The notes beneath the pieces were generated by a model that made no database searches, was not told where the DNA came from, and saw only the letters and a list, made by a program, of their open reading frames with translations. Shown piece after piece: positions 1-25,176 of a stretch of 64,000 nucleotides of DNA. The DNA is from Rhodanobacteraceae bacterium (GTDB lineage: Bacteria; Pseudomonadota; Gammaproteobacteria; Xanthomonadales; Rhodanobacteraceae). Position 1 is the stretch's first letter. Each line of letters opens with the position of its first letter. The stretch covers positions 62,001 through 126,000 of the forward strand of contig SCQU01000003.1 of the NCBI GenBank assembly GCA_004299555.1, given 5' to 3'. The translations under genes and the position numbers were made by a program.

Positions 1-108
1 CATCACAAGGTCTGGCGGGTCCATGGCGGCACCGACCAATTGTCGAACCTGCAAGTGCTCCACCCCACGTGTCACGCGCAGTTGCACGCGCGCGCCACCG
101 CGGGTTAG
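1..108 (+). CDS. Group II intron reverse transcriptase/maturase, C-terminal HNH end (partial)
   Basis: The reading frame is open from the first base to the stop at 106-108, giving 35 residues. They contain the tail of an HNH endonuclease domain: a Gly-Gly pair, then LSNLQVLHPTCHAQLH, the pattern (N, L..LH..CH..H) found at the end of many group II intron-encoded proteins. In the family this domain cuts the second DNA strand during retrohoming. Reverse transcriptase and maturase domains would lie upstream, outside the window. The domain V hairpin follows 44 nt after the stop, as expected for an ORF looped out of domain IV. Confidence 0.8.
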   Translation, partial: HHKVWRVHGGTDQLSNLQVLHPTCHAQLHARATAG

Positions 109-230
109 GCTGCCGCTCGCTCCTTGGTCTTCGAGCGGGTTCAAGGCTGCTTGAGCCGTATGAGGCGAAAGTCTCACGTACGGTTCTGAGGGGGGAGGGT
201 GGCCGCGAGGCCACCTTCCCACCCGACTAC
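1..230 (+). mobile_element. Group II intron, 3' portion (domains V and VI)
   Basis: The segment holds the end of an intron-encoded protein followed by the catalytic 3' part of the ribozyme. Domain V is the 34-nt hairpin at 153-186, beginning GAGCCGTATGAGG and closing with its complement CACGTACGGTTC, which is close to the bacterial group II consensus. Domain VI is the long hairpin 190-224. I can pair 190-204 with 209-224, leaving a single unpaired adenosine at 221, which fits the branch-point nucleotide. The intron would end near position 230 with the usual A-pyrimidine. The rest of the intron lies upstream of the window. Splicing competence cannot be judged without domains I-IV. Confidence 0.88.
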
Positions 231-262
231 TGACGAGGGTTCGATTCCCTTCACCCGCTCCA
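231..262 (+). tRNA. 3' part of tRNA-Gly, split by the group II intron
   Basis: The sequence after the intron reads as the variable loop, T arm and acceptor strand of a tRNA: T stem GAGGG with CCCTT around loop TTCGATT, then CACCCGC, discriminator T and an encoded CCA at 260-262. This 3' half matches bacterial tRNA-Gly, most like the CCC isoacceptor. The anticodon half is not in the window, so the isoacceptor is inferred. The junction falls at the anticodon-stem/variable-loop boundary. If the intron splices, a mature tRNA is made; if not, this is a disrupted gene. Confidence 0.72.
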
Positions 263-24444: not shown

Positions 24445-25176
24445 TCAGAAATCGCCGAGCATCGCCTGCAATGCCGCGAGGGCGGCGATGCCGGCGGTTT
24501 CGGTGCGGAGGATGCGTGGCCCAAGGCTGAGCGCACCATAGCCGGCCGCGCGCAGTGCCGCGAGGTCGTCTTCCCCAAAGCCGCCTTCCGGACCCACGGC
24601 CAGCGTCACGGGCGTGGGCGGCGGCGTGAGGCTGCGGATGCGCGTGGCGTCGCCCGGTTGCAGTACGAAACGCGCGTCGGTTGCCGCGTTGGCGGCAAGA
24701 AAGGCCTCGAGGCTGCCGGCGACGTCGATCCGGGGCACGGTGTTGCGTCCGCATTGCTCGCACGCGCCGATCGCGATCGCGCGCCAGTGTTCCAGCCGCT
24801 TTGCCGCACGCGCCGCATCGAGCTTGACTTCGCTGCGCGCGGTCACGATCGGGGCGACGCGTGCCACGCCAAGCTCGGTCGCCTTTTGCACGATCCAGTC
24901 CATCTTTTCGCCGCGCGCCAGCGCCTGCAGCAGGGTCACGCGCAGCGGCGATTCGCGCGCTGGCGATTCGACGGTTGCCACACGTGCGCGGGTCACGCCG
25001 GGCGCGATGGTGGACAGCTGCGCCGGGTACTGGTGGCCGTCACCGTTGAAAAGGGTGACCGCATCTCCGGCGCGCAGCCGCAGCACGCGCACGGCGTGTT
25101 GCGCCGCGGTGGCCGGCAGGGCCAACTCAAGCCCTACCCGCAACGGGGTGTCTACAAACAGTCGTATTTCGCGCAT
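24445..25176 (-). CDS. rsmE: 16S rRNA (uracil-1498-N3)-methyltransferase RsmE
   Basis: The 243-residue SPOUT methyltransferase has an N-terminal PUA-like part (RLFVDTPL ... HAVRVLRLRAGDAV), a linker ALARGEKMDWIVQKATELGV, and the knotted SAM-binding C-terminus: LAVGPEGGFGEDDLAALRAAG and SLGPRILRTETA. It modifies U1498 in the small ribosomal subunit. It is a single gene, transcribed away from the signal-peptide protein that follows. Confidence 0.95.
   Translation of the reverse strand: MREIRLFVDTPLRVGLELALPATAAQHAVRVLRLRAGDAVTLFNGDGHQYPAQLSTIAPGVTRARVATVESPARESPLRVTLLQALARGEKMDWIVQKATELGVARVAPIVTARSEVKLDAARAAKRLEHWRAIAIGACEQCGRNTVPRIDVAGSLEAFLAANAATDARFVLQPGDATRIRSLTPPPTPVTLAVGPEGGFGEDDLAALRAAGYGALSLGPRILRTETAGIAALAALQAMLGDF

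Follow-up and report, generated by a model that had tools for sequence, protein, structure and literature searches.

Structure of the interrupted tRNA-Gly locus

The window, that is, the whole stretch of 64,000 nucleotides that was analyzed, corresponds to G000:C27:62001-126000. The locus around its left edge, L004, corresponds to C27:52001-70000, and a window coordinate equals the L004 coordinate minus 10000. The features at this locus are as follows.

C27:59523-59561, + strand: 5' exon (5' half of tRNA-Gly), upstream of the window
C27:59562-62227, + strand: group II intron, whole (2,666 nt); the window holds its 3' end (1-227)
C27:60393-60466 (L004:8393-8466), + strand: complete nested tRNA-Gly(CCC), inside the intron and upstream of the window
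C27:60477-62108, + strand: ORF encoding the intron protein (543 aa, counted from the first ATG), ending at window 108
Window 1-108, + strand: end of the ORF of the intron protein, with the C-terminal HNH tail and the stop codon
Window 153-186, + strand: domain V, within the RF00029 match
Window 190-224, + strand: domain VI, from RF00029 and the folded 3' end; helix limits approximate; branch-point A at 221
Window 228-262, + strand: 3' exon; it begins at position 41 in the 3' strand of the anticodon stem and continues through the variable loop, T arm, and acceptor strand to CCA

The intron starts with GUGCG at C27:59562, directly after the 5' exon, and ends with GAC at window 227. The Rfam family Intron_gpII (RF00029; domains V and VI) gave a 71-bit match at window 151-227 (cut-off, 40), the sole match of that family in the genome. 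An earlier, sequence-only reading of the window had described a group II intron that interrupts a tRNA-Gly gene; the interruption is real, the 5' half that it proposed to look for being present upstream. The domain V that it had placed at 153-186 agrees with the Rfam match, its branch adenosine at 221 proved to be the sole bulge of domain VI when the 3' end was folded, and the HNH tail that it had recognized belongs to an ORF with a C-terminal HNH domain. Its description of the 3' tRNA part was correct for the CCA end at 262 and needs revision at the other end, as this part starts in the anticodon stem and not in the variable loop. The 3' exon opens with TAC (228), the 3' strand of the anticodon stem, which places the insertion within this stem, at a site that we take to be between tRNA positions 40 and 41 in the standard numbering. 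Rejoining the exons gave a perfect anticodon stem (GUAGC/GCUAC), and the joined exons, which had been proposed as a check, were read as tRNA-Gly(CCC) by ARAGORN.

Rfam searches of the window and L037 at gathering scores gave group II families only, with no group I ribozyme core, and RF02012 (domain I) was matched in L037. Domains V and VI, exon-binding loops, a reverse transcriptase/maturase/endonuclease protein, and a precise empty-site joint were all found. By these features, the element is a group II intron, which would be expected to splice and to retrohome. The protein scored 361.5 bits against TIGR04416 (cut-off, 300) and contained the RVT_N, RVT_1, GIIM, and HNH domains. The protein match in this genome spans C27:60477-62105, and the start conserved among the proteins of relatives lies two codons after the first ATG. 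The long ORF between the tRNA halves that was searched encodes this protein, and no site-specific recombinase was found in it. The closest solved protein chain was 6me0, which is presumably the protein of a cyanobacterial IIB intron; the ribozyme of the present intron was folded by energy only.

A complete tRNA gene within the intron

Ten bases separate the end of the nested tRNA-Gly(CCC) from the first ATG of the intron protein. We assigned this tRNA to domain IV because it lies after domain III and before the ORF; the ORF of such group II introns lies in domain IV, as stated in the relevant part of PMC4424553. The nested tRNA and the joined outer exons differed at 2 of 74 bases, which form one compensated anticodon-stem pair (29-41; U-A in the nested copy and A-U in the outer gene) at the intron's own predicted recognition site. 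The sequence-only reading had argued that the intron must splice if the interrupted gene were the only tRNA for its codon. This argument is not supported in that form, because the codon might be read without splicing from the complete tRNA-Gly(CCC) within the intron. Nor does the locus resemble the case that the same reading had named against itself, an element inserted next to a stray fragment with a complete identical tRNA-Gly elsewhere: the additional complete copy is inside the intron and non-identical, and the outer halves form a matched pair. No promoters or terminators were found by consensus in L004:7200-8500.

Two observations concern the fate of the nested gene in other members of the family. 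In L058:3001-4020, L068:1-520, and L085:3650-4020, only the last 18–26 bases of the nested tRNA are left before the ORF, and the DNA upstream of the remnant is different, that of L058 and L068 being similar to each other; the pattern suggests that islands used the 3' end of the nested tRNA as an ordinary attachment site. The nested tRNAs at L083:3914-3988 and L104:3915-3989 closely resemble the outer gene of L069, which is naturally U29-A41, and the cargo may at times have been replaced by a naturally resistant host allele.

Empty sites and the glycine tRNA set

The intron protein was found in 1 of the 16 genomes of the genus, and the other 15 were without the intron. Both flanks aligned with an uninterrupted locus in 12 of these 15 intron-free genomes (main pieces, 74–82% identical), the upstream flank alone aligned in two, and no match was obtained in one (G005). 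As judged from these alignments, the intron occupies the one native locus for tRNA-Gly(CCC). The joined exons of this genome were identical to the uninterrupted genes of G003, G009, and G011, and the joined 74-mer typical of the other introns in the family had a full-length identical gene in seven intron-free genomes. A29-U41 was present in all 20 uninterrupted CCC genes recovered with a query that carried A29-U41 itself. When the six intron-bearing genomes of the family were searched, the matches were the nested copy and the two halves, with a tRNA-Gly(UCC) besides in five and one further weak match (77%, E 1.2e-4) in G280.

Among the 40 Rfam tRNA matches of this genome that were given anticodons, the glycine tRNAs were GCC and the nested CCC only, and no tRNA-Gly(UCC) was seen. 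The latter, we presume, usually sits in a Tyr-Gly-Thr neighbourhood, which is also seen in L182. Since this neighbourhood runs off the contig end in this genome, the missing UCC probably reflects a gap in the assembly. GGG, too, could probably be read by a tRNA-Gly(UCC). ARAGORN also called a tRNA-Arg(TCG) at window 24921-25006, which had no Rfam tRNA match and is probably a false call.

Distribution of the nested-tRNA introns

We found 38 loci with an intact nested tRNA-Gly after removing same-genome repeats (35 plus L181-L183). At the level of the order, 13 of the 398 sampled genomes contained a relative at E ≤ 1e-50, with a nested tRNA in six of the 13. A sample of the class gave matches at E ≤ 1e-150 in 11 of 369 genomes; four of the ten besides this genome were examined, and a nested tRNA was present in G644 and G717 and absent from G429 and G490. 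For named genomes, the best 80 of 241 relatives were analyzed by ARAGORN: a nested tRNA-Gly(CCC) was called in 31 of the 35 rows with at least 58% protein identity and in none of the 45 rows below 58%. The hosts of nested-tRNA introns included Rhodanobacter and other Lysobacterales, Solimonas, Piscinibacter, Duganella, Sideroxydans and Gallionella (Gallionellaceae), Dechloromonas, Propionivibrio, and Accumulibacter, with Rhodocyclales among the groups, and others.

The 39 rows of the nested group were separated from all others by a branch with a support of 100 in an 84-protein tree, and in a more careful tree of 50 rows, which included 8 of the 45 outside rows picked by hand, its support was 100/99. 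The nested group in the tree includes L058, L068, and L085, in which a 3' remnant is left, and L076, which contains Ns; these four were excluded from the intact count. Three rows were dropped, namely L040 (genome of L057), L053 (genome of L041), and L051 (locus of L042), whereas L052 and L055 are different assemblies with identical proteins, and the outer 3' half of L104 lies off its contig. These results indicate that, on the protein phylogeny, the nested-tRNA introns are one clade. Neither an interruption of tRNA-Gly nor a carried tRNA was found in the 45 nearest relatives outside the clade. Among plasmids, 1,505 records matched parts of the intron region and none covered 80% of it; among viral contigs, there were 11 relatives (47–53% identity), and ARAGORN found a tRNA in none of them.

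The bins of L052 and L055 are labelled Planctomycetota and Proteobacteria, with identical intron proteins and the same tRNAs, and the Planctomycetota label is probably a binning contamination. In the cargo-free L110 (6183 onward), at both ends of L114, and likewise in L044, the intron end CCCGAC abuts the intron start GTGCGACGAG, a junction that represents either head-to-tail introns or a circular form in short contigs.

Predicted guide pairing and recoded anticodon stems

The exon-binding sequences were predicted from complementarity. EBS1 (TGCTTGG) was identical in all 34 aligned introns, and EBS2 (AAGCT) was found in 31 of them. With EBS3 taken as A, 27 of the 28 distinct combinations (37 introns) had a stronger predicted EBS pairing for the outer gene than for the nested copy, a preference that is a prediction because the loops were assigned by complementarity and related introns are non-independent. 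The exception was L070, in which the predicted pairing was better with the nested copy. When the assumed EBS3 base was omitted, the outer gene was favoured in 25 of 28 combinations, and L041, L064, and L070 behaved in the opposite way. A search for a covarying EBS3 base in domain I gave one candidate column (T in L052/L055 and A in 29 of the 32 others), which was unconvincing and was rejected.

The nested and outer anticodon stems were identical in none of the 37 introns compared. In the cultured host Rhodanobacter thiooxydans LCS2 (L057), for example, the nested stem is GUUGC/GCAAC and the outer one GUAGC/GCUAC. The core target AGCTTCCCAAGCT was present in 31 of 33 outer genes versus 3 of 33 nested copies. 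It is retained by the nested copy in L070, L079, L082, and L183; the sixth EBS2 base still separates nested from outer in the last three of these but not in L070. The outer genes of L052, L055, and L069 were occupied even though they are without the core target/A29-U41. These comparisons suggest that the nested copy has been recoded at the recognition site, with a predicted weaker pairing with the intron's own loops.

Apparent maintenance of both tRNAs

Covariation was analyzed using 19 of the 35 nested copies and the 20 distinct joined outer sequences obtained from 34. Standard pairs made up 98.5% of the cells in the nested set. The number of both-side-changed cells in this set was 42 versus 13.8, above all 500 shuffles, and the covariation score was likewise above all of them; the number of both-side-changed pairs was unremarkable (178 of 500 shuffles were as high), as were the further pair types (367 of 500). 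In regards to the joined outer sequences, 98.1% of the pairs were standard, and the both-side-changed cells (44 versus 13.1), the both-side-changed pairs (9 versus 6.2), and the covariation score were all beyond every shuffle, with the further pair types reached by 104 of 500 shuffles.

The joined exons scored as tRNA-Gly in 33 of 34 introns, the failure being L076, which has Ns, and then in four of four further introns. Of the 34 rejoined stems, 28 were perfect, one contained a wobble pair, three an internal mismatch, and two an end mismatch. The internal mismatch is the same in L060, L078, and L084 (GCAGC/GCUUC, one C-U mismatch at 28-42) and reflects either early decay or a mismatch tolerated by the spliced tRNA. 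In the Gallionellaceae, six of the seven introns share an identical nested tRNA and their domain I-IV DNA is 81.6–97.6% identical; the nested tRNA of the seventh, L064, differs at eight bases. In three Rhodanobacter-group introns, with domains I-IV 92–94% identical, the nested tRNAs are identical and so are the outer ones. Both tRNAs thus look maintained at the sequence level. The conservation of the outer gene would be the weaker evidence of the two, because native tRNA genes are conserved anyway and the insertions may be recent. The distances between nested tRNAs correlated with those between proteins at r = 0.29, against 0.29 for the outer gene (L083 omitted); this comparison did not discriminate and does not show the nested tRNA to travel with the protein.

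Cargo matched to the target in G644

G644 contains two intron copies. L181 interrupts tRNA-Gly(CCC) and carries a CCC cargo. L182 lies between tRNA-Tyr and tRNA-Thr, where it interrupts tRNA-Gly(UCC), and carries a nested tRNA-Gly(UCC); its joined exons were called as tRNA-Gly(UCC) and are identical to the native gene in three genomes of the same family. EBS2 of L182 is AGGCT, versus AAGCT in most CCC-type introns, and fits C32 of the UCC gene in a register that was set by hand. The proteins of L181 and L182 are sisters with 77.6% identity. The anticodon of the cargo is CCC in 37 of the 38 intact nested copies, and the one copy in a UCC gene reads UCC, so that the match of cargo to target for UCC comes from one genome. 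The region from tRNA-Tyr to the interrupted tRNA-Gly(UCC) (L182:880-1300) contains repeated tRNA-Tyr 3' ends, an Rfam RtT match, and a run of Ns.

Nested copies and halves accounted for all six of the matches in G644; outside the introns, neither a CCC nor a UCC gene was found uninterrupted. tRNA-Gly(UCC) is ordinarily the sole tRNA that reads GGA. Every CCC and UCC gene found uninterrupted in G644 lies within an intron, so the decoding of GGA there would be expected to require splicing, the nested copy, or the two together, and in either case a mobile element. The sequence-only reading had suggested that such an intron ties cell survival to a mobile element; this comes closest to being true in another genome, G644, where tRNA-Gly(UCC) is interrupted too. 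More copies of the UCC type were sought in the order of G644 (11 genomes, E ≤ 1e-200) and in the order of G717 (57 genomes, E ≤ 1e-215), with no further clade-level match in either. The 33 named genomes had one high-scoring match each (at least 727 bits), and four weaker extra copies (575–669 bits) were found in G836, G838, and G847, so that additional copies of the UCC type may exist.

Proposed working of the element and alternative explanations

The anatomy of the intron, the empty sites, the single clade, the altered stems in all introns compared, the conservation of the nested copies, and the matched cargo in G644 are together consistent with a mobile intron that targets the anticodon arm of tRNA-Gly genes and brings along a recoded, target-resistant substitute for the gene that it interrupts. 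We consider this reading likely. A single transcript would begin at the promoter of the outer tRNA and could follow one of two routes. In one, splicing of the intron would yield the outer tRNA together with an intron particle capable of homing; in the other, RNase P and the 3'-processing enzymes would excise the nested tRNA, and the intron molecule would be lost while tRNA-Gly was still made. Either route would supply the cell with tRNA-Gly, the second through expression and use of the nested gene. If the element is currently mobile, homing into an empty tRNA-Gly gene would deliver its own replacement, which the intron would not easily attack. The recoding of the anticodon stem, mostly by paired changes, would keep the tRNA and weaken its predicted pairing with the target-recognition loops. 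Counted against this reading are the better nested pairing of L070, the nested copies that retain the core target and the occupied outer genes without it, the different nested tRNA of L064, the undiscriminating distance correlations, the single genome behind the UCC case, and the loss of the nested-tRNA linkage in the three clade members with remnants, which indicates that the joined arrangement can be lost. On balance, we lean towards regarding the family as a natural RNA-guided home-and-rescue retroelement that has reached several bacterial orders, with a recoded and less recognized cargo, in which guide, target, and cargo can change together (CCC to UCC).

The nested tRNA might instead be a domain IVa module that serves in maturase binding, translation control, or as a site of mRNA release, with an outer gene that splices well and supplies the tRNA. 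Its position speaks for this: it lies directly 5' of the ribosome-binding site, where some cargo-free relatives (e.g. L086) have a hairpin immediately 5' of the ORF, and in nearly all nested copies its CUCCA end stands a few bases before GGAGG. We nevertheless regard the explanation as unlikely, since such a module need not keep glycine identity and a target-matched anticodon as the nested copies do, and the difference from the outer stem in 37 of 37 introns would be left unexplained. It is similarly improbable, and a little more so, that the outer gene is dead or nearly so, that there is no useful splicing, and that the nested tRNA is the sole source, the halves looking intact because the insertions are recent. 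The mismatched rejoined stems described above (three internal and two at the end, among 34) would fit a decaying outer gene, and the absence of the intron from the 15 other genomes of the genus implies fast turnover. However, the joined outer genes retain their standard pairs and covariation, the three Rhodanobacter-group introns have identical outer tRNAs at a divergence of approximately 7% in domains I-IV, and most copies have ribozyme ends and a protein that look intact. A chance neighbourhood or an assembly artefact, such as a tandem tRNA duplication or a misjoined contig, is highly implausible. Draft or metagenome assemblies are indeed the source of many loci, and Ns occur in both tRNAs of L076 and, as a run, upstream of the 5' half in L182; yet the same layout recurs in the 38 loci, among them those of G130 and G400, which are single-contig genomes, and L081, which lies on a chromosome record, and its distribution is confined to one branch. 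Tandem duplication and misassembly were rejected on the basis of this recurrence across independent assemblies.

Comparison with known systems

The intron of the preferred reading shares with bacterial mobile group II introns of the RT-maturase-HNH type the GUGYG start, domains V and VI with a bulged A, the EBS-IBS loops, the place of the ORF in domain IV, and the RT, maturase, and HNH domains. Unlike the 45 nearest relatives outside the clade, this family interrupts tRNA-Gly and carries a complete recoded tRNA-Gly in domain IV. Integrated islands and phages use a tRNA gene as their attachment site and restore or replace it. They are likewise mobile, target a tRNA gene, and supply a compensating tRNA sequence (L249, below, is a possible example); in islands, however, DNA recombination by an integrase restores the end of the same gene, whereas here an RNA-guided intron would bring a whole second gene. 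Engineered home-and-rescue gene drives consist of a homing element with a recoded copy of the target that it does not recognize. The proposed working is similar, but the present element is natural, bacterial, and guided by ribozyme loops, and does not belong to that class. It would parallel, in nature, engineered homing with recoded rescue, and would add a paired change of guide and cargo.

In the parts of PMC4390854 and PMC4033280 that treat them, bacterial introns in tRNA genes are described as self-splicing introns in the anticodon region, mostly at 37/38. Chloroplast tRNA genes hold group II introns, and the trnK intron encodes a maturase, according to the corresponding parts of PMC4033280, PMC4390854, and PMC4424553. 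As far as these parts go, the group I introns of bacteria, the group II introns of chloroplasts, and the present family all belong to self-splicing classes located in the anticodon region of a tRNA; those introns lie mostly at 37/38 and no carried tRNA is mentioned for them there, whereas the site here is 40/41 and the RT and HNH domains are kept. In the open-licence literature, which was the scope of our search, we found no description of a group II intron with a tRNA as its cargo. The mobile introns of bacteria are mostly located outside housekeeping genes, as stated in the relevant part of PMC4424553, and the family suggests a way round this limit, namely to bring the broken gene along, altered to fit the intron's own guides poorly. 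The glycine decoding of the hosts may then depend on a selfish element. Because the two tRNA products differ in sequence, the choice between splicing and tRNA maturation in one RNA is directly testable.

A different insertion was observed in L249 (G780:C1:1422000-1426500), where a tRNA-Gly(CCC) is split at the anticodon loop by approximately 2.55 kb of other DNA. This insert is without a group II intron by Rfam and contains another tRNA-Gly(CCC) at L249:1152-1227; L249 is perhaps a DNA island with a similar replacement strategy.
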